A DNA stretch of 35,299 bases, taken from NCBI RefSeq assembly GCF_003144095.1, contig NZ_NSKH01000004.1, positions 490,370 to 525,668 on the forward strand. The letters run 5' to 3'. The position numbers and the translations under genes were made by a program. Below are positions 1-34,226 of this stretch, piece after piece. Numbering within the stretch: the first letter of the stretch is position 1; every line of letters begins with the position of its first letter. This DNA comes from Streptomyces sp. ICBB 8177 (GTDB lineage Bacteria > Actinomycetota > Actinomycetes > Streptomycetales > Streptomycetaceae). The notes under the pieces are model-generated. The model worked only from the letters and a program-made list of their open reading frames with translations. It was not told where the DNA came from and searched no databases.

Positions 1-98
1 GTGCCCTCCAGTGCGGCTTGAGTCGACGCCGCGTCGTAACACTCGTCCGCGGTGTCCTGCGAGGTAAGAGCGACCGTTGAGACGAGCTGCGCCACCAT
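1..98 (-). CDS. Unknown protein, N-terminal part only (runs off the left edge)
   Basis: An open frame on the minus strand starts at ATG 98-96 and stays open to the window edge, giving about 32 residues (begins MVAQLVSTVALTSQ). A strong ribosome site, GGGAGG, lies a few bases upstream (complement of about 103-109). The peptide is too short to recognise. It lies downstream of, and in the same direction as, the STAS gene at 356-688. A GGGTAT hexamer (complement of 144-149) about 45 bases upstream could be part of a sigma-B-like promoter, but its -35 match is poor. Confidence 0.6.
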   Translation of the reverse strand, partial: MVAQLVSTVALTSQDTADECYDAASTQAALEG

Positions 99-355
99 TT
101 TTCCCTCCCTGACCAGCCGATACGCCGTGATCTGGTGCAGCGGATACCCTCAAGAATCCGGATCATTTCGTGACGTGCGTCACACAGGGGGATCCAGGCG
201 GCACGGATCCCGCGACCGCAGCCGGCCCCCCGGGGGTTCGCGAGGTTTCGCGCTGACCGAACACCTCACCCAGTGGCTCGCCGCCACGATGACGCGGGAT
301 TCGCGCAGGAGGCTCTCACCGCCCTTGTCGTATGGCAGGTCGTCTTCGCATTCGT

Positions 356-688
356 TCAGGCAGGCGGTGCTTGCTGGGGCCGAATGGTGAAGACGCGGTC
401 GAGGCCGACGAGGGTCAGCAGGCGCAAGGTGTTGGGAGGTACCGAGGCCAGGACGATGTCGGCGCCCAGGGATTGCGCAAGCTGTCGGGCACCGAGGAGG
501 GCGGCGATGCCGCTGGAGTCGCAGAACTCGACGCCGGACAGGTCGAGGATCAGGGATTGGCCAGGGGCCAGGCTGAGGTTGGCGGTCTGGTCGCGCAGCG
601 CGGTCGCGTGATCGTAGTCGAGTTCGCCGGCGAGGTGGAGCACGGGACCGGTCTCGGTGTGGTCAGTGGTGATCTTCAGCGGGCTCAT
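356..688 (-). CDS. STAS-domain anti-sigma factor antagonist (RsbV/SpoIIAA type)
   Basis: This single STAS domain of 110 residues has the usual length for RsbV or SpoIIAA. The phosphorylation loop is clear: LDLSGVEFCDSSG, with the DSSG motif at residues 57-60, where the family's phospho-serine sits. Proteins of this family release a sigma factor by binding its anti-sigma kinase when unphosphorylated; a cognate PP2C phosphatase reactivates them. The start at 688 lies 10 bases after the stop of the PAS-PP2C gene and has no good ribosome site of its own, so it is probably translated by coupling. That layout makes it the natural substrate of the phosphatase (inference). Confidence 0.9.
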   Translation of the reverse strand: MSPLKITTDHTETGPVLHLAGELDYDHATALRDQTANLSLAPGQSLILDLSGVEFCDSSGIAALLGARQLAQSLGADIVLASVPPNTLRLLTLVGLDRVFTIRPQQAPPA

Positions 689-698
689 CGTGGTGGAT

Positions 699-2009
699 TC
701 ATGGCCGAGAGCGGCGTGGTGCGGAGGTGGTGTTCGGGCCCAGTGTGAACAGGGCGGTGTCGTCGTTCAGGCCGGTACCGAAGCCCTCCAGCAGCCGGGT
801 CAACGCGGTGATGAGCTGGTGCGGCGCGGCGGGGGCGTGGTGGGTGGCGAAAGCGCGCAGGGCGTCGTCGCCGTAGAGGGCACCGCTGGGCCCGGTGCGG
901 GCTTCGGTCAGGCCGTCGGTGTACAGCAGCATGGTCTCGCCCGGGGCCAGGGTGGTCTCGGCGGTGACGAAGGGGGCATCGGGTAGGGCGCCGACGAGGA
1001 GTCCGCCAGGGGTGGGCAGGTACTCGGCGTGGCCGTCCGCGCGCAGGATCAGGGCCGGAGGGTGGCCGCCGGAGGCAAGACGCACGCCGGCAGGTTCCCC
1101 GTCGCCACCGGGGGTGAGGATGCCGAAGACGACAGTGCAGTAGCGCGGGTCGCCGCCGGCGGCGTACCGCTGGTGGAGCACGGCGTTGAGCGTACGGAGA
1201 GCCGCGGCGGGTTCGGGGTCGTGCAGCGCCGCGGCGCGCAACGTGTAGCGGGTCAGCGAGGTGAGCGCGGCCGCCTGCGGCCCCTTGCCGGACACGTCAC
1301 CGAGGAAGAACGCCCAGCGTTCGGCGTCGATGGGAAACAGGTCGTAGAAGTCACCGCCCAGACGCACGACTGAAGCGGTGTGGTAGTAGACGGCGGCTTC
1401 CACCCCGGGCACGTCGGGGAGGGTCGTGGGGACCAGGGACTGCTGGAGGATGGCGAGGGCGTCGGCGAGACGTTTCCTGTCGGCCTCCGCTTCCCGCCGG
1501 GCCGCTTCCGCCTCTGCGCGCGCCTGCTCGGCCTCCTGACGGCGATGCAGCAGTTCCTGCTCGTAGGCGCGGCGGTCGGAGGCGTCGAAGACCGTGGTGC
1601 GAATGAGCTGCGGTTCGCCCTCACTGCCGCACTTGACGGCTGACGAGACCAGCACGGGAAGCTTGCCACCCGATTTGGTCCTCATCTCCAAGGCGATTCC
1701 GCGCAGTTCGCCTTGCATACGCAGCAGCGGGGCGAAGTGCGTTTCGTGGTAGAGCTTGCCCCCGACCGTCAGAAGGTCGGCAAAGCGGAGCCGGCCCACC
1801 ACCGCTTCGCGGTCCCGGCCGAGCCAGTCCAGCAGCGTGTTGTTGATCTTGGCGATCGTGCCGTCCATCAGCGTGGACAGATAGCCACAAGGTGCCGACT
1901 CGTACAGTTCCTCCGCACTGTCTTCCAGCAGTGCGGTGAACTCCGCGTCCGCACTGGCCGCGCCGCCGTTCTCCGAGGGGGGATCCGACTCCTGGCCGGT
2001 GCGGCACAT
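699..2009 (-). CDS. PAS-coiled-coil-PP2C (SpoIIE) phosphatase, RsbP-like
   Basis: The protein has 436 residues in three parts: a PAS domain at about 30-145, an Ala/Glu/Arg-rich coiled coil at about 148-190, and a SpoIIE-type PP2C domain at about 200-425. Metal motifs are intact: GGDFYD at 218-223, DVSGKG at 238-243, a TDGLTEA motif and a final NDDTAL. This is the domain order of Bacillus RsbP, which dephosphorylates RsbV under energy stress. The start at 2009 is chosen because its ATG overlaps the stop of the upstream RsbQ-like gene (TGATG); the frame is open further upstream but that part lies inside the rsbQ-like gene. The partner hydrolase is upstream and the likely STAS substrate downstream. 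Confidence 0.92.
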   Translation of the reverse strand: MCRTGQESDPPSENGGAASADAEFTALLEDSAEELYESAPCGYLSTLMDGTIAKINNTLLDWLGRDREAVVGRLRFADLLTVGGKLYHETHFAPLLRMQGELRGIALEMRTKSGGKLPVLVSSAVKCGSEGEPQLIRTTVFDASDRRAYEQELLHRRQEAEQARAEAEAARREAEADRKRLADALAILQQSLVPTTLPDVPGVEAAVYYHTASVVRLGGDFYDLFPIDAERWAFFLGDVSGKGPQAAALTSLTRYTLRAAALHDPEPAAALRTLNAVLHQRYAAGGDPRYCTVVFGILTPGGDGEPAGVRLASGGHPPALILRADGHAEYLPTPGGLLVGALPDAPFVTAETTLAPGETMLLYTDGLTEARTGPSGALYGDDALRAFATHHAPAAPHQLITALTRLLEGFGTGLNDDTALFTLGPNTTSAPRRSRP

Positions 2010-2815
2010 CACCGGTGGGCCGCCCCCAGGAAGTCCAGGACAGCTTGCGCGGTGGCCTCCGGCGCGCTCAGCTGCGGGCAGTGCCCGGTGGCGTCCAGGG
2101 TGACCAGTTGGGAGGAGGGAATGGCCGCGTGCACGTAGGCGCCGACCTCCCGCGGCGCGATCACGTCCTGGGAGCACTCCAGCACCAGCGTCGGCACCTT
2201 CACACTCTTGAGGTCCTGACGGCTGTCGGACAAGAAGGTGGTGCGCGCGAAGACCCGGGCGATGTCCGGGTCGGTCGCGCAGAAGCTGTTGGTCAGCTCC
2301 TGACCGAGTTCGGGCCGGTCGGGGTTGCCCATGATCACCGGTGCCATGGCGGACGACCAGCCCAGGTAGTTCGACTCCAGGGAGACGAGCAGCTCATCGA
2401 TGTCCTCGGAGGAGAAGCCGCCGCGGTAGCCCTCGTCGTCGATGTAGCACGGGGAGGGGGCGACCATCACCAGCGCCCCGATCCGCTCCGGGGCGGCCTG
2501 TGCCGCCAGCACCCCCACCATGGCGCTGACCGAGTGCCCGACGAAAGCCGCTTCTCGCAGGTCCAGTTCCTCGCAGACCTCGACCACGTCCTGGGCGTAA
2601 CCGGCCAGCGAGGAGTACCGGGAGGCGTTCCAGGCCGAAAGATCCGACTGACCGGAGCCGACGTAGTCGAACAGCACCACCCGGTAGCGCTCCGCCAGGG
2701 CGGGCACGACCAGGCGCCACATGTTCTGGTCGCAACCGAAGCCGTGCGCCAGCACGACCACCGGCCCGTCAGCCTGGCCGGTCACGGTCACGTTGTTCCT
2801 GCGGGCAACATCCAT
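2009..2815 (-). CDS. rsbQ: RsbQ-like alpha/beta hydrolase
   Basis: The 268-residue alpha/beta hydrolase closely follows Bacillus RsbQ along its length, including GFGCDQNMW, DYVGSGQSDL and SPCYIDDEGY. The catalytic triad is visible as Ser95 in GHSVS, Asp217 and His245, numbers almost the same as in RsbQ. The family also contains the plant D14/KAI2 receptors. RsbQ is needed for RsbP to activate sigma B, probably by supplying or sensing a small hydrophobic molecule. The start at 2815 follows GAGG at 5-bp spacing and matches the family N-terminus; longer forms in the same frame are Arg-rich and unlikely. The stop overlaps the RsbP-like start by one base. Confidence 0.92.
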   Translation of the reverse strand: MDVARRNNVTVTGQADGPVVVLAHGFGCDQNMWRLVVPALAERYRVVLFDYVGSGQSDLSAWNASRYSSLAGYAQDVVEVCEELDLREAAFVGHSVSAMVGVLAAQAAPERIGALVMVAPSPCYIDDEGYRGGFSSEDIDELLVSLESNYLGWSSAMAPVIMGNPDRPELGQELTNSFCATDPDIARVFARTTFLSDSRQDLKSVKVPTLVLECSQDVIAPREVGAYVHAAIPSSQLVTLDATGHCPQLSAPEATAQAVLDFLGAAHR

Positions 2816-2977
2816 TACCTCATCCTGCCATCCCGGGCCCGGGGCCAACTCGCCGGACCTGCGAAGACCCGGACCCGACCTGTGTAGATCCAGTGCAGGA
2901 ACGGACTCTGAGCCGCGAATTCGTAGGAGTTCACGACGCCGGCGCAAGCCGGATGCGGCGGGCGCAGCACACTCAGA

Positions 2978-3015
2978 ACGGGGTGGGTCGGCTCCATGGA
3001 GCCGACCCACCCCGT
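2978..3015. terminator. Perfect 38-bp palindrome, likely terminator
   Basis: Positions 2978-2996 pair perfectly with 2997-3015, so there is no loop beyond the turn itself. It lies 33 bases past the stop of the CsbD-like gene and upstream of the RsbQ-like gene. It probably ends csbD transcription and insulates the rsbQ operon. Confidence 0.75.
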
Positions 3016-3047
3016 CCTTCCTCACCGCCCCGCCCAGGCGGGAGTCC

Positions 3048-3221
3048 TCACGGGCGCAGAGTGTCCTTGCCCTTCTCCTTCGCCGCGCGGGCGTCGCCCT
3101 TGGTCTGCTCCGCCTCGCCCTTGGCGCGTGCGCTTTCGTTGCCGACCGCCTTGCCCGCGGTCTTCTTGGCGGCGCCGGCTGCCTGCTCCGCCTTCGCCTT
3201 CGCCTTCTGTTCGGCACTCAT
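3048..3221 (-). CDS. CsbD-like general stress protein
   Basis: The 57-residue, highly charged, Ala/Lys/Glu-rich protein has the CsbD pattern: MSAEQKAKAKAEQAAGAAKK, then a GKAVGNESARAKGEAEQTKG segment. CsbD was named as a sigma-B-controlled gene in Bacillus; its biochemical role is unknown. The ATG at 3221 is preferred over the TTG at 3236 because GAGGAGG lies just upstream of it. It sits head-to-head with the small hydrophobic protein at 3352 and directly behind the rsbQ-rsbP-STAS operon, which fits a stress-controlled gene. No clear sigma-B promoter was found in front of it. Confidence 0.85.
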   Translation of the reverse strand: MSAEQKAKAKAEQAAGAAKKTAGKAVGNESARAKGEAEQTKGDARAAKEKGKDTLRP

Positions 3222-3351
3222 CGCGCGCCTCCTCAAGAGTCAGCGTCTGGTTGCTGGAACGTCTCACCGGACAGGACCTCGTCAAACCCCGAAAACTCGA
3301 TGGAATGATCCCTGTGGGCGAGGGCACCGGCCGTGGTGGAGGTGGATGACA

Positions 3352-3519
3352 ATGGGTCCCTTGCTTTTGGTTCTGCTGCTCGCCCTGATCCTTTTCGGTG
3401 CGGGCTTCGCCCTGAAGGTCCTGTGGTGGGTCGCGGTCGCCGTGCTGGTCATCTGGCTGCTGGGCTTCCTGGTCCGCACCGGTGAGGGCGCCGGCCGAAG
3501 CCGGTGGTATCGATGGTGA
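3352..3519 (+). CDS. Small hydrophobic membrane protein
   Basis: The 55-residue protein is nearly all membrane: one run of about 40 hydrophobic residues (MGPLLLVLLLALILFGAG, then VLWWVAVAVLVIWLLGFLV), enough for two segments, and a short Arg-rich tail. Similar tiny hydrophobic proteins are common in Streptomyces and have no known function. The ATG at 3352 is chosen because GGAGG at 3338-3342 is about 9 bases away; the in-frame ATG at 3346 is too close. It is transcribed divergently from the CsbD-like gene and ends just before a strong terminator. Confidence 0.8.
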   Translation: MGPLLLVLLLALILFGAGFALKVLWWVAVAVLVIWLLGFLVRTGEGAGRSRWYRW

Positions 3520-3532
3520 CCTGACTTCGGGC

Positions 3533-3587
3533 GCACACATGGTCGGGGCGGCAGCCTTTAATGGGGTGCCGCCCCGACCATGTGTGC
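3533..3587 (+). terminator. Strong stem-loop terminator
   Basis: A perfect 21-bp inverted repeat (3533-3553 with 3567-3587) encloses a 13-base loop, 13 bases after the stop of the small hydrophobic protein. There is no T-run, as is usual in high-GC actinomycetes. Confidence 0.9.
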
Positions 3588-3914
3588 TCTGCTCTTTGTG
3601 CCTGCGGCGAATTACAACAGCCAGGCTCGGGGAGGGGAATTCCCGGCGGGACGGGCCGAATCCCGCAGGGACTCGCCTCCGATGCCCGCCCCGCCGCCTG
3701 TCGAGGACTGCCGGGCCCGCTTGACCTCCGGGCTCGCCGACTCGGAGCGCGGCGCACCGGATGTGAATGGCGGTCGGCAGGGTCGAACCGGCTGGACGTC
3801 GCCCGATGCGGGCAAAGGACCCATGCCGCCGAGGCCCATGCCACCGAGGCCGGTGCCAGTTGGCCGAGTCTGTCGGCTCCTACGCTGGCGTCGCTTGCTC
3901 TGCGTTCCGGGCCG
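3588..3914. other. Intergenic stretch, no gene seen
   Basis: About 330 bases between the terminator and the 3' end of the leftward gene at 3915. Open frames here are short, low in family-like sequence and lack ribosome sites. I see no RNA gene or repeat. Confidence 0.5.
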
Positions 3915-4199
3915 CTACTCGGCGAGCCCCCTCTTCAGGGCCTTCGCGACATCCCGGGCGACGCCGAACTCGTTGAACAGCCGGCCGATCAGAATGCCGC
4001 CGCCGTGCACATGGAACGTGGTGTCCGTCTCGTGCTCATCCCGCCGGACCGTGGCGTAGGAAAGCGACGAGAGCTTGACCTTGAACTTGTCCGGTGAGCT
4101 CTCGCGCGGTTCAACGATGAAGCGGTTGTCCAGTTCCCTCTGGAGTACCGCTTCGGCGTTGTCGGAGGTGACTGATCCGGGGACCGTGACGTTGGGCAT
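3915..4199 (-). CDS. Conserved small protein of unknown function
   Basis: This 94-residue soluble protein begins MPNVTVPG and ends with a helix-like stretch (GRLFNEFGVARDVAKALKRG). GGAGGTC lies just upstream of the ATG at 4199. The central HETDTTFHVHGGG motif and the C-terminal helix look like a compact conserved domain; I believe similar proteins occur widely in Streptomyces, but I cannot name a function. There is no signal peptide or membrane segment. A sigma-B-like element, GGCT-N14-GGGTGT on the minus strand (4273-4296), lies about 74 bases upstream; the match is imperfect. Confidence 0.75.
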   Translation of the reverse strand: MPNVTVPGSVTSDNAEAVLQRELDNRFIVEPRESSPDKFKVKLSSLSYATVRRDEHETDTTFHVHGGGILIGRLFNEFGVARDVAKALKRGLAE

Positions 4200-4594
4200 G
4201 ATGACCTCCAGTGCGGGCCCCTTGGCCGCCCGCGCGCCGAATCGTCGGCATCGCCCACCTGGCGGGTGTTCCACACCCGTCCGGGTCGCGTCAGCCGACC
4301 CGACCCTTGCCATGTTTCCACGGGCTCCGGACCTACGCACCTCGTCCGACAGCCCGCGACGTCAGTTGCCGGACGATGCCCGGTCGGTCAGGCCCTCTGC
4401 TGGCAGCGGACGGGTGCGGTGGGTGCGCGGCGAGACATTGTCCTCGTCGGGGTCCGGGGGCGGGCGCCGACCGCGCGGGTCGTGGAGGCGCTCCGGCGGT
4501 TCGATCGGACGACAGGCGAAAACCGTACGTCTTACCCGACCCGGCGACCGAAGTGCTCGCCTCGTACGCCGCCATCCCGAGGCGACATGCCACG
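4200..4594. other. Intergenic stretch with a weak sigma-B-like element
   Basis: About 395 bases lie between the start of the small unknown gene and the 3' end of ku. The only signal noticed is the possible -10/-35 pair at 4273-4296 (minus strand). No supported gene was seen; the open frames lack ribosome sites. Confidence 0.4.
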
Positions 4595-5485
4595 TCAGCC
4601 GGTCTTACGGCGAGCAGCGGCCGCCTTCTTCGAGGGCGCCTTGGCCTTCTTGGCCGTCGCCTTCTTCGCGCTCGTCTTCTTGGCCGTGGTCTTCCTGCCC
4701 GCGGGTTTGCCACGGGTCGCGTCCAGGCTGGCTTGGAGGGCGGTGGCGAGGCCGATGACGTCGCCCCCCGTGGGTTCCTCGTCGCCCTCGTCGTGTGGGA
4801 GCGGTTCGCCTTCGAGCTTCGCGGTCACCGCGGCCTTCAGCGCCTCCTGGTAGCGGTCAGTCTCCTCCTCCAGACGGAAGTCCTGGGAGAGCCGGTCCAT
4901 CAGCGACATCATCATCCGCCGCTCCTGCGCCCGCGGTTCGGCGTCCGGCCCGGGCAGATGGAAGTCAGGGCTGCGCACTTCGTCCGGCCACAACAGTGTT
5001 TGCAGGATGAGTGATTCGTCGTGCACCCGCAGCAGCGCGGCGGCCTCCCGCGTGGCGATCGCCACCTTGGTGACGGCTACCTGCCCGGTTTCCGCGAGGG
5101 TGTCGCGGAACAACTCGTACGGCTTGGCCTGCGCCTCGGTCTGGGGGGTGACCCAGTAGGCGGTGTCGTACTGCAACGGGTCGATCGCGTCGGCCGGGAT
5201 CACGGCCAGCACGTCGATCAGCCGCTTGCTGGGCAATGGAAGGCCTGCCATGTCCTCCTCGGTCAGCACCGCTTGCTGATCACCCTGCTCGTAACCGCGG
5301 GCGATGTCGTCGCGGGAGACCTCCCGACCGCAGACCTCGCAGTAGCGGCGCTGCCGGACCCGTCCGCCGTCCTGGCGGTGGACCTGATGCGCGCGCAGGT
5401 CGTGACTGCCGGTCGCGCGGGTCAGCTCGACACCGATCTGGACCAGCCCGAACCCGATCTGGCCTTTCCACTGCGGGTGTGGCAT
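4595..5485 (-). CDS. ku: Ku DNA end-binding protein (non-homologous end joining)
   Basis: The protein of 296 residues opens with the bacterial Ku signature MPHPQWKGQIGFGLVQIGV, continues with HQVHRQDGGRVRQRRYCEVC, and has the long Ku core to about residue 225. Ku homodimers thread onto broken DNA ends and recruit the LigD ligase. The last 40 or so residues are a Lys/Ala repeat tail (TTAKKTSAKKATAKKAKAPS), the DNA-binding extension seen in actinobacterial Ku. No ligD is adjacent. The start at 5485 follows TAGCGT by six bases, so the message may be leaderless. A decayed copy of this gene's 3' half lies at 20065-20378. Confidence 0.95.
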   Translation of the reverse strand: MPHPQWKGQIGFGLVQIGVELTRATGSHDLRAHQVHRQDGGRVRQRRYCEVCGREVSRDDIARGYEQGDQQAVLTEEDMAGLPLPSKRLIDVLAVIPADAIDPLQYDTAYWVTPQTEAQAKPYELFRDTLAETGQVAVTKVAIATREAAALLRVHDESLILQTLLWPDEVRSPDFHLPGPDAEPRAQERRMMMSLMDRLSQDFRLEEETDRYQEALKAAVTAKLEGEPLPHDEGDEEPTGGDVIGLATALQASLDATRGKPAGRKTTAKKTSAKKATAKKAKAPSKKAAAARRKTG

Positions 5486-6427
5486 ACCGCCACGCTAAGA
5501 CGGGACCGGCATATGCGCAGGTCGAGCGGTCGTGTGACGGGCCGATCGGGTCACCCTGGGGGAGCGCGGTGTCGCACGGGTCGTGAGGCGGCCAGTCGTA
5601 CGTTGCGGACTCCGCCCGAGAAGTGCGCCACGGGTTCCTCGGCAGGCGGGGGTAGACCGGCCGCGCGGGTCAGAACGGTGGGCGCTCTCAGCGAGGCATG
5701 GAATGTGTTCCCGCGACCAGCCGCCCGAGGCCGGTCGCGATGTGGTGGAGAGGGCATGGTCGGTACCGTGCCGTTCAGCACGTCGGGGCGGCGGCGCAGG
5801 TCCTTGCCGTACGACTCGCGGGCCTGGGGTGGGCCCCCGAGTCCCCTCGGTGCAGAGGCGTTCGGCGCCCTGCCGGTGCTGGTCGTCGCAGAGTCATTGG
5901 ATGCCGCTGGGCGCGGCGCGCAGCCGGGTGTGCGAGAGGCCTGTGTAGTCGCACGGGTGGCCCGCGCCGCATCGCCTCCACGCCTCGAACACCGACTCGG
6001 CGGCGTGCCACGTCACCGGCGGCCACTCGCCGTCCTTGTCACGAAAGCCCGCCGCGCTGGGCGCAATCGGTCGTCGCCACCCGGCCTCACAGCACGTCAG
6101 GAGGCAGCGCGCTTCCATGGGCACCCGCCAGTCATCGCCGAAGGTCTGGAGTGCGGCGCGCGTCCGAGCCCGTCGCCGGCTCTCACGGCATTGCGGCTGA
6201 CGGGGTCCGTCAAGCAGCGGGACGAGAGTGTCGCCGTCGAGGGAGGCGCCGCGCCCTTGTTGGCTCTGCACATGGTGGACAGGTGCAGGCCATGGGCGGA
6301 GGCTCCGTGCCGAGGCGGCTCTTGCCGGGCGCAGGCCCCGGCGTTTCCAAGCCGTCCCGCGGGCTGGTCCCGATGCTTCCGGGGACCAGGTGGTGTGGCA
6401 GGTGGCCCCGGATCGTAGGCTGCGGTC
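5486..6427. other. Long stretch with no gene I can support
   Basis: About 940 bases lie between the divergent ku and carbonic anhydrase genes. The best candidate is a minus-strand frame at 5894-6271 (125 codons); its middle reads somewhat protein-like (around DDWRVPMEARCLLTCCEAGW) but I recognise no family and see no ribosome site. It may be a remnant. A TAGGCT hexamer at 6416-6421, just before the carbonic anhydrase ATG, could be a -10 box for a leaderless message. Confidence 0.35.
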
Positions 6428-26979: not shown

Positions 26980-28137
26980 TCAGCGTCCGTACCAGTCGAG
27001 GCAGACGATGAGGGCGTCGTCCTCGGGGGTGAGGTCTCCGCGGTGGCCGGTCAGCTCGCGGAGCACTGCGCGGGGCATCTCGGCAGGGGGTAGCAGTCGG
27101 GTGGCGGTGATGGCGCGGGCCAGGGCGCGGTCTCCGTAGCGTTCGCCGGCGGGTGAGGCGACCGCATGCACGCCGTCGCTGACGAACACCAGCCTGTCAC
27201 CCGGTTCGACGGCGAATTCCTCGGCGACGTAGTCGGTCTCTTCGAACATTCCCAGCGGGAGCTGGGCTTCGAAGGCGATGGGCTCGACGACGCCGTCACG
27301 CAGGCGCAGCATCTGGGGGGAGCCGGCGTCCACGACGCGGGCGTGTCCGGTGGCCAGCTCGAATTCGAGCAGGAGCACGGACAGGTGGGCGCGGCCGCGG
27401 TACTGGGCGTAGACGGCTTGGTCAGCCAGGCATGCCTGGTCCGCGATGGAGATGCCCGCGCGTCGGGCGTTGCGCAAGGCGTTGATCGTCAGGTTCGTCA
27501 GCAAGGCTGCCTCTATGCCTTCGCCCATGCCGTTGGTGACGGTCAGCACGAGGGTGTCGGCGGTCGACGACCAGTCGAAGTTGTCTCCGTAGATCGCGTA
27601 GGCCGGCTCCAGCTGGGCGCCCAGCGCGTATTCCTTACGCGAGGAGGCGCGCCCAGGCAGCAGCTGCCACTGCATCTCCGCGGCAAGGGTCAGTCGGTCT
27701 TTGCGCCGGGCCTGCAGGTACAGGTCCGTGTCGCGCTCGGCGACGAGCACCTCGTGGCCCAGTACCTCGGCGATGTCGGCCAGCTCGCGGACCGTGGGAG
27801 CGGGCCACTCCTCCTGCGCCGTCACGCACAGCACCCCCAGGCGGTCACCGCGCACGCTCACCGGCAGGTGAACGGTTGAACGTCCGTCGCCGAGAGGTTC
27901 GGTGAAGGGCTCTTGTGAGCCGAAGGCTCGGCCGGCGGGGGAGCTGTGGAGGGGCACTGGCTGGGTGGTGTGAGGCAGCACCGCCACGGGCTGCAGCACC
28001 GTCAAGCCGTAGTCGGCCATGAGCAGCTCCACCGACTCCGCCTGGTAGTGCTCGGTCAGTACGGAGCGGACCGCGTCGAGCAACTGGTGGGGCGCGGCCG
28101 AACGCAAGGCTCGCTCGGCGACCGTGTATCTGTTCAC
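26980..28137 (-). CDS. SpoIIE-type PP2C phosphatase with altered metal motif
   Basis: The 385-residue protein has an N-terminal sensory domain at about 10-130 (GAF-like, LLMADYGLTVLQPVAVLP) and a SpoIIE PP2C domain at about 150-380. Motifs read YGDNFD at 183-188, TNGMGEG at 201-207, VSDGVHAV and PEDDALIVCLD. In the second motif the metal-binding Asp is Asn202 and the following His is Glu206, where the truncated paralogue keeps DGMGHG. Activity is therefore doubtful. The GTG start at 28137 has no clear ribosome site. It is divergent from the MarR gene. Confidence 0.85.
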   Translation of the reverse strand: MNRYTVAERALRSAAPHQLLDAVRSVLTEHYQAESVELLMADYGLTVLQPVAVLPHTTQPVPLHSSPAGRAFGSQEPFTEPLGDGRSTVHLPVSVRGDRLGVLCVTAQEEWPAPTVRELADIAEVLGHEVLVAERDTDLYLQARRKDRLTLAAEMQWQLLPGRASSRKEYALGAQLEPAYAIYGDNFDWSSTADTLVLTVTNGMGEGIEAALLTNLTINALRNARRAGISIADQACLADQAVYAQYRGRAHLSVLLLEFELATGHARVVDAGSPQMLRLRDGVVEPIAFEAQLPLGMFEETDYVAEEFAVEPGDRLVFVSDGVHAVASPAGERYGDRALARAITATRLLPPAEMPRAVLRELTGHRGDLTPEDDALIVCLDWYGR

Positions 28138-29148: not shown

Positions 29149-29204
29149 CCGGCCTGACGCGCAGGTGCCTAGGTGACGGGCGCATGTGGTGCAAGGAGAC
29201 ATCC

Positions 29205-30089
29205 GTGGCGCACGAGACGAAGCAGGAACAGCAGGCGGCGCAGCTCGCTGGGGCGTTTCTTTCCCAGCGATCTGAGCAGGTGGCGCAGCGATGGGCCGAG
29301 CTGCCGCTGTTCCGTGCGATCTTCACCGTGGCGCGGGATGAGGCGGTGGAGGCGTGCCGTGCCGTGGCCGAGGCATTGGCGGATGTCGCCGCGTCGGGGC
29401 GGGTGGAGGACCTGGAGGCGCCGGGCTTCGAGAGGGTGCGTGAGCGGCTGGCCCGGATGGCCGCGGCACGGATTCGGGCTGGGCAGTCCGCGGGGCAGGT
29501 GGCGAACGAGGTCGCTTCGCTGAAGCGGTCGGTGCTGGAGCTGTTCGCGTCCGAGCCGCTGGAGGCAGCAGAGCCCGAGCGGGCCGGCGTCGAGCTGGCC
29601 TTGGTAGAGCTGTTCGCAACACTGCGGTTGGTGGTGATGGAGACCACGCTCACCGCCGGACAGGATGTGATCGCCCGGCAGCGTCAGCAGCTGATGGAGA
29701 TGGCGACACCGGTGGTGCAGTTGTGGGACCGGGTGGTAGCCGTGCCGCTGATCGGGACCCTGGACAGCGCCCGCAGCCAGGTCGTCATGGAGAACTTGCT
29801 GGAAGCGATCGTCGCGCACCGGGCAGCCGTGGCGATCTTGGACATCACCGGTGTACCCACGGTGGATTCCCTCGTCGCCCAGCACCTGATGAAGACAGTG
29901 GCAGCGGCCCGGCTGATGGGAGCGGAATGCATCGTCTCCGGTGTGCGCCCAGCCATCGCCCAGACCATCGTTCAGCTGGGTATCGATCTGGGCTCCGTCG
30001 TCACCCGAGCCTCCCTGGCCGACGCGCTGGCGCTGGCGCTCAGTCGCCTCGGCGTCTCCGTTCCCGCCACCCCCGCAGTCGCAGGCTGA
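29205..30089 (+). CDS. rsbR: RsbR-like stressosome protein
   Basis: The 294-residue protein has an all-helical N-terminal sensory domain of the RsbRD type (about 10-150, RVRERLARMAAARIRAGQSA) and a C-terminal STAS domain (about 165-285: LIGTLDSARSQVVMENLLEA, ILDITGVPTVDSLVAQHLMK). RsbR proteins form the stressosome scaffold with RsbS and sequester RsbT. Ser222 of the PTVDS loop stands where RsbR proteins have a phosphorylated Thr. GTG 29205 is chosen because AAGGAG lies 6 bases upstream. It begins an operon of five genes. Confidence 0.9.
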   Translation: MAHETKQEQQAAQLAGAFLSQRSEQVAQRWAELPLFRAIFTVARDEAVEACRAVAEALADVAASGRVEDLEAPGFERVRERLARMAAARIRAGQSAGQVANEVASLKRSVLELFASEPLEAAEPERAGVELALVELFATLRLVVMETTLTAGQDVIARQRQQLMEMATPVVQLWDRVVAVPLIGTLDSARSQVVMENLLEAIVAHRAAVAILDITGVPTVDSLVAQHLMKTVAAARLMGAECIVSGVRPAIAQTIVQLGIDLGSVVTRASLADALALALSRLGVSVPATPAVAG

Positions 30090-30106
30090 GGCGGGAGACG
30101 CAACGA

Positions 30107-30502
30107 ATGCTCGTGGGCCCCACCCCCGTCCTTACCGTAGGCGACATCCTCCTGGTGTGTGTCGGCGACGACCTGGGCGACGACGCCGCCCTCGCCCTGC
30201 AGGAAGACATCGCCGCCGCCATCGAGAAGCGCAGCGTGCGTGCCGTCGTCATCGATGTCTCCAGCGTAGGCATGGTCGATTCCTTCCTCGGCCGCATCCT
30301 CGCCGAGATCGCCGCTTGTGCCCACCTGCTGGCCGCGCAGGCCATCGTGGTCGGCATGCGCCCGGCGGTCGCCATCACCTTGGTGGAGCTCGGGCTGACG
30401 CTGCCCGGCCTGCGTACCGCGCTCGACGTCGGCGAGGCCTTCGCCACCCTCGGCGTCGTGTTCCCCCCCATCGGCAACCGGGCCGAGGCCGGGGGCCCGT
30501 GA
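30107..30502 (+). CDS. rsbS: RsbS-like stressosome STAS protein
   Basis: The 131-residue single STAS domain carries VVIDVSSVGMVDSFLGR; Ser59 falls at the same number as the phosphorylated Ser59 of Bacillus RsbS. RsbS is the core of the stressosome and is phosphorylated by RsbT on stress. It starts 17 bases after the rsbR stop with GGGAG upstream, and its stop overlaps the RsbT start by one base. The last dozen residues are an extra tail. Confidence 0.92.
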   Translation: MLVGPTPVLTVGDILLVCVGDDLGDDAALALQEDIAAAIEKRSVRAVVIDVSSVGMVDSFLGRILAEIAACAHLLAAQAIVVGMRPAVAITLVELGLTLPGLRTALDVGEAFATLGVVFPPIGNRAEAGGP

Positions 30503-30948
30503 TGAGCGCCCCGAGCGACATGGACATCCAGGTACCCATCACCTCTGACGCCGACCTGGCCCGAGTGCGGCAACAGGTGCGCGAAGCCGCGGTGAAAGCG
30601 GGCTTCGGCCTGGTCCAGCAGACGAAGGTCGTCACCGCGGCCAGCGAACTGGCCCGCAACACCCTGGTGCACGGCGGGGGCGGCCGGATGGAGATGAGCG
30701 AACGGCCAGGACTCGGCGGCGCCGTGGAGTTGCGCCTGCGCTTTTGCGACGACGGGCCCGGTATCGCCAACGTCGAGCAGGCCCTTACCGACGGGTGGAC
30801 CAGCGGCAACGGCATGGGTCTCGGCCTGGGCGGGGCGCGCCGCCTGGTGCACGAATTCTCCCTTGAGACCACACCCGGGCGCGGCACGACCGTGACCATC
30901 AGCGCCTGGTCGACGCCCACCCCGCCTCCGCAGGGAGCTGGCTGGTGA
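30502..30948 (+). CDS. rsbT: RsbT-like switch kinase
   Basis: The 148-residue HATPase has an N-box with Glu49 and Asn53 (TAASELARNTLVHGGGG), the DDGPGI box at 83-88 and the GMGLGLGG lid at 104-111. RsbT phosphorylates RsbS and RsbR and, once released, activates an RsbU phosphatase. The ATG overlaps the rsbS stop (TGATG), and its own stop overlaps the next GTG (GTGA), so stoichiometric co-translation is likely. Confidence 0.92.
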   Translation: MSAPSDMDIQVPITSDADLARVRQQVREAAVKAGFGLVQQTKVVTAASELARNTLVHGGGGRMEMSERPGLGGAVELRLRFCDDGPGIANVEQALTDGWTSGNGMGLGLGGARRLVHEFSLETTPGRGTTVTISAWSTPTPPPQGAGW

Positions 30949-32012
30949 CGGGCGTGTGGCACGTTCCTGTCCACGACTCGACGCGCATCCGTGACGCGCG
31001 GGTGGCGGCGGAGTGCGCCGCGGCCGCAGCAGCGCTGGGCGAGGCCCGCACCGCCTCCGCCGCCCTCGTGGCCACCGAGCTGGCCACCAACGTCCTCAAG
31101 CACGGCGGGGGCGGCCAGGTCCTGATCGAGGTCGTCCCGCACACGCAGTCCGGCGGACCAGCGGACACGATCCAGATACTCGCCCTCGATCACGGGCCCG
31201 GCATCGCCGACCCCCATGCCGCGTTCCGGGACGGCTATTCCACCGCCGCGTCCCTCGGCGTGGGCCTGGGCGCCTGCCTGCGCGCCGCCACCGCCTTCGA
31301 CCTGCACAGCCGACCCGGGCACGGCACCATCGCCCTGGCCCGCGTCGGCCCCCAGCGACCCGCACATGCCGACCAAGGCGGGGCCTTGACAGTGCGCGCC
31401 GCGGGCGTGCACCTGTCGTTGGACGCCGCCCCACAGAGCGGCGACGCCTTCACCCACGTCACCGTGGATCAGAAAATCACCATGATGGTGGCGGACGGCC
31501 TCGGCCACGGCTCGCGCGCCGCCCAAGCATCCGACGCCGCCGTGGCCTGCGTTCACCAGCACCCCGACACGCCGCCTTCCCAGCTGCTGCCCATCCTCGA
31601 CACCGCCCTGCGGGGCACGCGCGGCGCCGCAATCGCCCTCGCACAAGTCGACCTGCACACCGGCACCCTGACCTTCGCCGGCACCGGCAACATCGGAGCC
31701 CGCCTACGCACAGGCCCCCGGTGGGACCATCTCCTGTCACGGCCCGGGATCATCGGCGCCTACCAGCACGCCACCACACCCCCCCTCCAGCGACGCCCCT
31801 GGGGCCCCGACTCCATGCTCGTCCTGCACAGCGACGGTGTGCCGAGCCGCTGGCAGTACCCCGACGACCCCGGACTCCCACAACACGACCCCGCCGTCAT
31901 CGCCGCCGCGATCCTGCGAGACGCACTCAACCCGGCCACTCCGCTCCGCGACGACACCACCATCGCCGTCCTCACCAACAACCCGCACCGCCCCCATGGA
32001 GCGCAACCGTGA
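30945..32012 (+). CDS. HATPase-PP2C fusion protein (RsbT/W-like kinase joined to RsbX-like phosphatase)
   Basis: The 355-residue protein joins two opposing activities. Residues about 15-135 are a GHKL ATPase: Glu45 and Asn49 in TELATNVLKHGGGG, DHGPGIAD at 82-89, GVGLGA at 105-110 and GHGT at 125-128. Residues about 150-345 are a PP2C domain like RsbX: SGDAF at 165-169, ADGLGHG at 183-189, HSDGVPS and RDDTTIAVL. In Bacillus, RsbX is a separate protein that resets RsbS and RsbR. Both ends overlap neighbours as GTGA. Both domains look intact. Confidence 0.9.
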   Translation: MTGVWHVPVHDSTRIRDARVAAECAAAAAALGEARTASAALVATELATNVLKHGGGGQVLIEVVPHTQSGGPADTIQILALDHGPGIADPHAAFRDGYSTAASLGVGLGACLRAATAFDLHSRPGHGTIALARVGPQRPAHADQGGALTVRAAGVHLSLDAAPQSGDAFTHVTVDQKITMMVADGLGHGSRAAQASDAAVACVHQHPDTPPSQLLPILDTALRGTRGAAIALAQVDLHTGTLTFAGTGNIGARLRTGPRWDHLLSRPGIIGAYQHATTPPLQRRPWGPDSMLVLHSDGVPSRWQYPDDPGLPQHDPAVIAAAILRDALNPATPLRDDTTIAVLTNNPHRPHGAQP

Positions 32013-33811
32013 GCACCGAAGTGTTCACCCGGCGCATCGCCACCCCTGTGGATGTCGCCACAGCTCGCCTGCGGACAGCGCGCCTGCTGGCCGCCGCAAA
32101 GCTCCCCCCGGCCGAACGCCTACGGCTACTCACCAGCGTCTCGCAGCGCCTACGCGAAGAAGTACTGTCCGGTCGCTCGGCCAGGCTGCGCCTTCGCCTC
32201 ATCACCGATCCGCATCCAGCAGTGCACGCCGAGGTCGCCACCGACGACAGTCGCGCCGTGCCACTCTGGCAGACCCGCGCGGACTTGCCGCACGACACCG
32301 CCCTCCCCGTCGCTGCCGCTGCGGCCCGCAAGGGCAACACGAGTCTGCTGGAGCTTGCCGAGGGCCTGCTCGATGCCGACAGCGATGTCCAGGCTGTCTT
32401 GGACCTGCTGGACGAACACCAGGAACTCGTCGCCTTCTACCGCGACGAACTGCAGCAAACCAACCGCGGACTCCTCGCCCTGCACGCGGAACTCGACGCC
32501 GCCGTACAAGCCCGGCAAGACCTCCTGGTAGCCGAACAAAAAGCTCGTGCGGCAGCCGAAGCCGCACGCAACCGCCTGACCTTCCTGTCCACCGCCAGCG
32601 CCTCCCTGACCACGTCACTCGACCACGACGACGTGGTGGACCGCCTCACCGCACTCCTGGTGCCCGCACAAGCCAGCAGCGCCCTCGTCTGGCTACTCGA
32701 CGAACGCGACCGCCTTACCCCAGCAGGCAGCACCCGCAACCCCCCAAAGTCGTCTCCGTCCCGTCCCATCACCGCTGCGGCCCGCACAGGACTGCCCCAC
32801 TACGCCGCACCGCACCCGGCCCCCTACGACAGCGTCACCTATCTGCCGACGCCCCCCGGGGCAGGAGCCCGCAACCCGGCTCCCGTACTCGCTCTGCCCC
32901 TGACCACGCCGCATGCCACCCTCGGCACGCTCGCCCTCACCGCACCATCCAGCGGCTTCGAGGCCGACGACGTCGTCATGCTCATAGAACTCGCCCGCCG
33001 AGCCGCCACCGCCATCGACAACGCCCTGCGCTACCAGCACGAGCGCAACATTGCCGAGACCCTCCAACGCGCCATGCTCACCGACCTGCCCTCCCACAAG
33101 TCACTGAGCATGGCCGCCCGTTACCTCCCCGCCGGCGGCATGAACATCGGCGGAGACTGGTACGACGCCTTCACCCTCCCCGACGGCACCCTCATCGGCG
33201 CCATCGGCGACGTCACCGGCCACGGAATGCACGCCGCCATCATGATGGGCCAACTACGCAACGCTCTACGCGCCTACGCCCTCGAAGGCCACAGCCCCGG
33301 GGCCCTGCTCACCCGCCTGCACCAACTGCTCCGCCAACTCGAACCCGACCTGTACGCCACCGCCGTCATCATCCGTGTCGAGCCCGACCAACGACACTTC
33401 ACCTGGGCCAGCGCCGGACACCCCCCGTCCCTCCTACGCGAAGCAGACGGACAGGTCCACCGCCTCGACGCCCCCGCCGGCCCCATGCTCGGCCTGCCGA
33501 TCGACAAGACCTTCCCCGAGCACCAACGCCCCTTCCCGCCCGGCTCCGCAGTCCTCCTCTACACCGACGGCCTCGTCGAACGCCGCACCACCGGCATCGA
33601 CCCTGGCATCGACCAACTAGCCAGCAACCTCTCAAGCCTCGGACACCTCGTACACGACGACCTCGACACCGCCGCCGAAACCATCCTCGAGCGCATGCTC
33701 GCCAACTACCGCCGCGAGGACGACGTCTGCCTCCTGCTCTGCCACGCCGACCGCCTCGGGCTCACCGGCACGCAGCCGGAACTCAACAAGGCGGCTGGCA
33801 CGCTGCGGTGA
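32009..33811 (+). CDS. RsbU-like GAF-PP2C phosphatase with degenerate HATPase-like N-terminus
   Basis: The 600-residue protein has four parts: an N-terminal 80 residues resembling the RsbT start but without its catalytic N-box, a helical and coiled-coil linker (about 110-195), a GAF domain (about 195-345) and a SpoIIE PP2C domain (about 365-590). PP2C motifs are intact: GGDWYD at 381-386, DVTGHG at 401-406, SAGHPP, YTDGLVERR and REDDVCLL. It is the likely output phosphatase of the stressosome, acting on an RsbV-type STAS protein. GTG 32009 overlaps the previous stop as GTGA. Confidence 0.9.
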   Translation: MSTEVFTRRIATPVDVATARLRTARLLAAAKLPPAERLRLLTSVSQRLREEVLSGRSARLRLRLITDPHPAVHAEVATDDSRAVPLWQTRADLPHDTALPVAAAAARKGNTSLLELAEGLLDADSDVQAVLDLLDEHQELVAFYRDELQQTNRGLLALHAELDAAVQARQDLLVAEQKARAAAEAARNRLTFLSTASASLTTSLDHDDVVDRLTALLVPAQASSALVWLLDERDRLTPAGSTRNPPKSSPSRPITAAARTGLPHYAAPHPAPYDSVTYLPTPPGAGARNPAPVLALPLTTPHATLGTLALTAPSSGFEADDVVMLIELARRAATAIDNALRYQHERNIAETLQRAMLTDLPSHKSLSMAARYLPAGGMNIGGDWYDAFTLPDGTLIGAIGDVTGHGMHAAIMMGQLRNALRAYALEGHSPGALLTRLHQLLRQLEPDLYATAVIIRVEPDQRHFTWASAGHPPSLLREADGQVHRLDAPAGPMLGLPIDKTFPEHQRPFPPGSAVLLYTDGLVERRTTGIDPGIDQLASNLSSLGHLVHDDLDTAAETILERMLANYRREDDVCLLLCHADRLGLTGTQPELNKAAGTLR

Positions 33812-34226
33812 GCCGGCCGATCACGTGCTCGGAGGCTCCCGGGGAAGGCTGAGTGCCAGGGTCCACCTGACTGCGGACGACTCCCTAGCTTTGCGCCGTC
33901 ACCGCTGGCCAGGCCAGTGATGCGCCTGCCTTCGAGACGGTGATCTCTCGCATTCGTGTGCCTCGCATCGGCTCGGCCAGGCCGCGTCGAGCGGTGCATC
34001 AACCGCCTGAAGCAGTGGCACGGCCTGGCCGCACGCACCATGGCGCACCAGGGCTCAACCCACCTTGCGAGGAGCCACATCTGGCCTCGGCGCTGACCTG
34101 GAGAAAGAACCCAGGCCGGCACGACAGCGCAAGTTCGATGCTCTGTCGGACTGCTTTCCCTGCCGAGGGGCAGACGCTGCGTCAGGCGCTCTGCGAGCGG
34201 TAAACCCGGAAAGCGGGAGGATCAGC
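33812..34226. other. Gap after the stressosome operon
   Basis: About 415 bases with no intact gene. Apart from the transposase remnant at 33983-34096, nothing was recognised. No strong terminator stem was seen after the operon. Confidence 0.5.
33983..34096 (+). pseudogene. IS5-type transposase remnant (C-terminal end)
   Basis: One plus-strand frame reads RVERCINRLKQWHGLAARTM, then HQGSTHLARSHIWPRR and a stop at 34094-34096. This matches the C-terminal block of IS5-type transposases (VER-INRLKQWRGLATR followed by a YxAALxLA-IW ending). Nothing earlier in the frame is convincing. It lies in the gap between the stressosome operon and the lipoprotein gene. Confidence 0.75.

Follow-up and report, generated by a model that had tools for sequence, protein, structure and literature searches.

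In Bacillus subtilis, the hydrolase RsbQ and the phosphatase RsbP of the sigma-B pathway are encoded as a two-gene unit, with the gene for RsbV lying elsewhere (PMC3183031, PMC8346170). The hydrolase gene directly precedes the PAS-coiled coil-PPM gene, and sigB belongs to an operon of its own, rsbV-rsbW-sigB-rsbX. RsbQ binds the PAS domain of RsbP, and the catalytic triad of RsbQ is required (PMC3183031). Here we describe a related set of three genes in Streptomyces sp. ICBB 8177 (genome of 6.33 Mb in 27 contigs), encoding an RsbQ-type hydrolase, an RsbP-type phosphatase and an RsbV-type STAS protein. They lie in a stretch of 35,299 nt on contig NZ_NSKH01000004.1 (positions 490,370-525,668), which we refer to as the window. 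The locus is a widespread variant of a known module: the pair was already known, and the added gene for a probable substrate and the link to a sigma factor gene make it a useful variant.

The RsbQ-RsbP pair is not new to Streptomyces. A paper of 2011 described the pair, reported that it occurs in this genus with phosphatases as output, and put forward the notion of a sensing module in two parts; to its authors the cue to which the RsbQ-PAS module responds was mysterious (PMC3183031). The modules reported there for Streptomyces ambofaciens and S. pristinaespiralis, with two copies, consist of the same kind of hydrolase and PAS-PPM partner and come from the same family of organisms as the genes described here; we found no mention there of a third gene or a sigma factor neighbourhood, and the term STAS occurs 0 times in the main text. 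A paper from 2018 labelled SCO3690/SLIV_19850 as RsbQ-like (PMC6295645; label as given there). A PPM domain behind a helical linker is also found in RssB and in RsbU, which is activated by a partner protein (PMC12143880). The sensor half in the RsbU-RsbT branch is an N-terminal helix bundle read by RsbT, whereas here it is a PAS domain predicted to be read by a hydrolase. In the open-access literature, most subscription papers being outside that search, we found no description of an operon of these three genes, of the promoter element or of the neighbouring sigma factor genes.

The hydrolase, the phosphatase and the STAS protein

The first gene encodes an Abhydrolase protein (Pfam) whose best match in the Protein Data Bank (PDB) was RsbQ of B. 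subtilis (1wom; E 5e-90, 305 bits), with 51% identity (134/264 columns). After RsbQ came the bacterial protein Olei00960 (258 bits), KAI2-type proteins (at most 204 bits; phmmer E 4e-59 and weaker) and D14 proteins (at most 186 bits), and by these scores the hydrolase is not closer to D14/KAI2 than to RsbQ. It does belong to the same hydrolase subfamily as the plant D14/KAI2 receptors. The partner of those receptors is an F-box protein, whereas the partner here is a PAS phosphatase. The triad S95/D217/H245 was invariant in all 141 hydrolases compared (the window and the 140 further loci described below). The RsbQ pocket residues are F27, V97, F136 and F196 (PMC3183031), and the pocket residues here, F26 (134/138), V96 (139/141), F134 and F194 (both 141/141), were likewise kept. 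Since the runner-up in the same genome reached only E 4e-12 and 27% identity, this genome contains a single RsbQ.

The product of the second gene matched PAS_9 (E 9e-8) and SpoIIE (E 9e-46). Its AlphaFold2 model, computed from an alignment of 50 sequences, had a mean predicted local distance difference test score (pLDDT) of 91 and comprised a helix (residues 17-37), a PAS domain (42-142), an unbroken helix of 49 residues (144-192) and a PPM domain (203-425). When this model was searched with Foldseek, RsbU, RssB, SiaA and SpoIIE phosphatases were returned first, with PAS domains appearing from rank 37. Six aspartates of the PPM domain (D220, D223, D238, D365, D416 and D417) were invariant in the 50 sequences, and some of these are presumably the metal-binding aspartates of PPM phosphatases. 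The class positions described for RsbP-type PAS domains are C, L, a basic residue, an aromatic residue, H/Y and P, without the DIT motif (PMC3183031). We found C41, L44, K85, Y87, H91, P94 and P118 kept in 126-136 of 136-137 rows (with either K or R at position 85), and K85, Y87, H91 and P94, which match the class positions, are all borne by the helix 82-99. The DIT motif is replaced by D-A-S in the window protein and mostly by D-A-R across the family, and the place of C56 is taken by His. These positions were mapped by hand, without an aligned B. subtilis RsbP sequence, and the assignments of E72 and L48 are uncertain; in this mapping Y87 and H91 correspond to F55 and Y59. Among 30 tested of the 39 SpoIIE loci in the genome, the F-alpha signature GKLYHETHFAP occurred in one, that of the operon phosphatase, which was also the only one matched by a PAS profile made from the operon proteins.

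The third gene encodes a single STAS domain (Pfam STAS, E 3e-19) that scored above the cut-off of the anti-sigma factor antagonist superfamily (TIGR00377, 73.6 bits). With the SpoIIAA equivalog TIGR02886 it reached 49.5 bits against a cut-off of 114.75, and therefore it is not SpoIIAA itself. S58, within a DSSG motif, was invariant in 89/89 operon STAS proteins, and the next residue was Ser or Thr in 88 of them. By analogy we take S58 to be the serine that is phosphorylated, and it is the likely phospho-acceptor of the protein.

A preliminary description of this DNA, made from the letters alone, had proposed an RsbQ-like hydrolase with an intact Ser95-Asp217-His245 triad and a kinship with D14/KAI2, a PAS-coiled-coil-PP2C phosphatase and a tightly linked RsbV-type STAS protein. 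These identifications are borne out by the results above, with the pairing of the long helix as a coiled coil standing as a candidate. The three reading frames and their spacing (TGATG, then 10 bases) were also correctly placed, and what was said of the gene order in Bacillus agrees with PMC3183031 and PMC8346170.

Conservation of the three-gene set

The hydrolase was found at E <= 1e-40 in 117 of the 297 Streptomycetaceae genomes sampled and in 24 of 396 of the phylum, the window's genome being counted in both. Two copies were present in 12 of the 297, as in S. ambofaciens and S. pristinaespiralis, and a 13th sampled family genome has two copies of which one is broken into two matches. We compared 140 neighbourhoods besides the window: 80 from named genomes, 41 from the lower-scoring part of 130 Streptomycetaceae places, and 19 from other families (18 genomes). 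The named loci are biased towards close kin because they are the best-scoring 80 of at least 580 relatives of the hydrolase in named genomes.

A PAS gene followed the hydrolase gene in 80/80 named loci, 40/41 more distant Streptomycetaceae loci and 17/19 deeper actinobacterial loci, and the PP2C part was found there in 79/80, 38/41 and 12/19, with two more of the 19 carrying PP2C further on in a longer frame. In 33 additional loci with short flanks, some from the same species as the named ones, PAS and PP2C were adjacent in all 33. The STAS gene was third in 67/80, 21/41 and 0/19 loci, where L066 and L194 (contig ends) were set aside, L221 (two weak STAS matches of 56 and 63 bits, under the limit) was counted as lacking STAS and L202 (STAS behind a cut PAS gene) as having it. 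The arrangement goes beyond chance, and the three-gene set is common in Streptomyces and relatives and no oddity. The preliminary description had suggested searching actinomycetes for this gene order, and had held that its interpretation would fall if homologues of the hydrolase were usually found away from PP2C genes; such is not the case, since they almost always adjoin a PAS-PP2C gene.

No fourth conserved gene was found among the 80 named loci, the widest other cluster matching 16 other loci at scattered places and on both strands. Where STAS was missing, no replacement gene in its place was common to the loci compared. In L202, L221 and L096 the phosphatase part is cut or damaged and the hydrolase is retained, and these are possibly decaying copies.

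Pairwise distances within 88 operons were correlated between hydrolase and PPM domain (0.80), PPM domain and STAS protein (0.75), hydrolase and PAS domain (0.69) and hydrolase and STAS protein (0.56), with a full range of r from 0.46 to 0.80; these values include shared species history. The hydrolase tree was built quickly, carries a single support value and contains some long branches; in it, copies from Nonomuraea, Planobispora, Nocardiopsis, Lentzea and Saccharothrix were placed among the Streptomyces copies, and this placement suggests that the operon has been transferred as a cassette.

Gene arrangement and promoter

The features of the locus are given in Table 1. ATGA or TGATG was found within the 10 bases surrounding the hydrolase stop codon in 101/125 loci; 16 of the 141 loci, in which the start of the hydrolase gene was not clear, were left out of the overlap and promoter counts. 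The TGATG in the window is consistent with translational coupling of the hydrolase and phosphatase genes, and the spacing, including the 10 bases between phosphatase and STAS genes (689-698), suggests that all three are co-transcribed. The motif TGnNANNNT was present 6-7 nt before the hydrolase start in 91/125 loci. The background was 144 of the 40085 ATG/GTG codons across the loci, and about 0.2 loci at each other offset; the motif was found before the hydrolase start in 0/12 deep loci in the set. This suggests an extended -10 element serving a leaderless mRNA, with GAGGA acting instead as a Shine-Dalgarno sequence being a weaker alternative. In the triad, the pocket and most of the PAS F-alpha class positions the locus is like Bacillus rsbQP, but the STAS gene in third place, the overlap of the first two genes, the leaderless-type promoter element and the adjoining SigB-type gene set it apart.

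Table 1. Positions in the window of the three genes, their putative regulatory elements and the adjoining sigma factor gene
Feature	Position	Strand	Remarks
Extended -10-like element TGGCAGGAT	2822..2830	minus	6 nt before the hydrolase start codon
RsbQ-type alpha/beta hydrolase	2009..2815	minus	268 aa, P0001; ATG at 2815, TGA at 2011-2009
TGATG stop/start overlap, hydrolase-phosphatase	2007..2011	minus	read directly
RsbP-type phosphatase (PAS, long helix linker, PPM/SpoIIE)	699..2009	minus	436 aa, P0003; ATG 2009-2007, stop 701-699
RsbV-type protein, single STAS domain	356..688	minus	110 aa, P0002; ATG at 688, stop 358-356
GGGTAT, SigB-type -10-like hexamer	144..149	minus	46 nt upstream of the sigma start; lacks a good -35; read by eye without statistics
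SigB/F/G-family sigma gene, 5' end	1..98	minus	leaves the window at the left edge, 919 further bases; candidate output

Sigma factor and kinase genes near the operon

A SigB/F/G-family sigma gene starts on the same strand 257 bases downstream of the STAS stop codon. Its product covers sigma regions 2-4 (frame L289:7082-8098) and matched TIGR02980 above the cut-off (G000:C24:489466-490086). The genome contains eight such genes above the cut-off, the window's included, and the window's sigma factor is 82% identical to a paralogue. The promoter consensus against which the GGGTAT hexamer in front of it was read is that of PMC8346170.

SigB-type sigma genes were also found near 17 of the 140 other loci (1.48 Mb in all), where about 1.9 would be expected from the density in this genome. 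Twelve of the 17 lie upstream on the same strand (two of these being partial matches and one split in two). Since 12 of the 15 neighbouring sigma genes of sufficient length form one well-supported clade, part of this count reflects shared descent. HATPase_c_2-like proteins were found in the flanks of 29/141 loci, with about 12 expected. The expected figures (about 2 for sigma and about 12 for HATPase) set matches to our own profiles against the Pfam/NCBIfam densities of one genome, and they are estimates rather than tests because the densities come from a single genome and the loci are interrelated. The sigma profile (seven rows) and the sigma tree are rough, because both include own_L232, a wrong reading frame rather than a sigma factor, which forms the longest branch of the tree and should be disregarded.

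In L210, a locus of another genome, the genes for a sigma factor (2314-3246), a HATPase (3263-3937), the hydrolase (3995-4828), the phosphatase (4812-6068) and the STAS protein (6065-6421) follow one another on the plus strand. By its predicted products this row is a complete switch of sigma factor, RsbW-like HATPase, RsbQ, RsbP and STAS protein.

Neighbouring genes

Just upstream of the operon lies a CsbD-like gene (PF05532; window 3048-3236, minus strand), a member of a family that is under sigma-B control in Bacillus. Between the two is a perfect palindrome of 38 bases (2978-3015) that is terminator-like and absent from the list of the terminator scan. A frame for a very small hydrophobic protein at about 3350-3519 (plus strand) resembles, by eye, one in the locus L093, whose small-protein cluster (L093_16) matches 8 other named neighbourhoods of the operon. 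Further along are a Ku protein gene (4595-5485, minus strand), which we presume to serve non-homologous end joining, and another SpoIIE phosphatase gene (26980-28137, minus strand). A second partner-switching cluster is located at 29184-33852 (plus strand), with two YtvA/RsbR-like STAS frames, a HATPase and a HATPase-SpoIIE fusion; it has a further SpoIIE match at 33179-33745 and resembles stressosome genes.

Discussion

We consider it probable, and well supported by the sequence, that the operon encodes a hydrolase-gated RsbQ-RsbP-RsbV partner switch that acts on a SigB-family sigma factor. In this proposal the RsbQ-type hydrolase would bind or turn over a small hydrophobic ligand in the cytoplasm. 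By analogy with Bacillus it would then dock on the PAS domain of the phosphatase, and this contact would bring order to the long linker helices in the phosphatase dimer, so that the PPM domain becomes active and dephosphorylates the STAS protein, made from the same operon, at Ser58. The nearness of genes further suggests that the dephosphorylated STAS protein would capture an RsbW-like kinase/anti-sigma factor, and that a SigB-family sigma factor, most likely that encoded directly downstream, would be freed. In Bacillus, RsbQ is predicted to sit between PAS domain and linker, much as RsbT does on RsbU, and thereby, it is proposed, to dimerise the phosphatase domains (PMC12143880). Given the helix of 49 residues and the conserved PAS face here, the same mechanism as in Bacillus is our best guess. 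The gene set and its conservation, the intact catalytic, putative metal-site and phospho-acceptor residues, the order of the domains with the linker helix and the recurrent nearness of SigB-type genes are the direct observations on which the proposal builds.

Several findings weigh against this partner switch. The three-gene operon contains no kinase gene, and with 52 HATPase_c_2 matches above the cut-off in this genome the kinase partner cannot be named. The window's sigma factor falls in another clade than the 12 related neighbour sigma genes, and the grouping of the window's sigma factor and those of the other loci as one orthologous group was rejected for this reason. The STAS gene is missing in 12/80, 19/41 and 19/19 loci with room for it, and its presence requires 18 changes on the hydrolase tree (41 when shuffled); the STAS protein is therefore not obligatory. 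A SigB-type promoter before the operon was not enriched (26/139 loci, compared with 31/139 on the reverse strand), so that no feedback loop is seen. Finally, the flanks examined contained no sigma gene in 123/140 loci.

This last count also favours a different outcome, in which the hydrolase and phosphatase keep their Bacillus roles and the STAS protein acts on a different partner switch, stressosome-like or with a non-sigma target. The genome would offer many parts for such a switch, with 39 SpoIIE and 12 STAS_2 matches above the cut-off beside those of HATPase_c_2. However, the STAS protein scores above the cut-off of the anti-sigma factor antagonist superfamily, and SigB-type genes occur near the operon more often than expected. 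We regard a target other than a SigB-type factor as possible though doubtful.

It is quite improbable that the operon corresponds directly to the energy-stress branch of Bacillus and is signalled to by a depletion of ATP or carbon. In Bacillus the sigma-B response to a limited energy supply requires the pair (PMC3183031), but no feature of the sequence here points to energy. That the hydrolase is a metabolic enzyme merely sharing an operon with signalling genes is highly improbable: its serine hydrolase triad is intact and it has NCBIfam enzyme matches (all below their cut-offs among the 25 of 34 matches listed), but RsbQ is by far its best PDB match, and the pairing with an RsbP-type PAS domain holds in 17/19 distant actinobacterial loci, and no further neighbour was found to be conserved. 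The interpretation given in the preliminary description is accordingly retained for the RsbQ/RsbP identity, the RsbV-type linkage and the kinship with D14/KAI2. We would drop the term energy-stress branch, and the claim that the module is self-contained was overstated, since kinase and sigma factor lie outside the three-gene operon even though a SigB-type sigma gene is so close downstream.

With sensor, phosphatase and probable substrate in one operon and a sigma gene adjoining it, three purified proteins and a single reporter would suffice to test the proposed pathway. Of greatest interest is the ligand that it would read. RsbQ itself is reported to perceive butenolides, in work of 2024 attributed to Melville. 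The operon may conceivably be a bacterial counterpart of the plant butenolide receptors, which in Streptomyces and relatives reads a butenolide-like hormone (the bacteria's own autoregulators, or plant strigolactone- or karrikin-type compounds in the soil) to release a SigB-family factor for stress tolerance or development; we consider this unlikely. If it were true, the operon would be a portable hormone-to-sigma circuit, since its genes appear to be passed on together as a cassette. The locus ties a hydrolase of the strigolactone/karrikin receptor subfamily to what would be stress regulation in antibiotic-producing soil bacteria.

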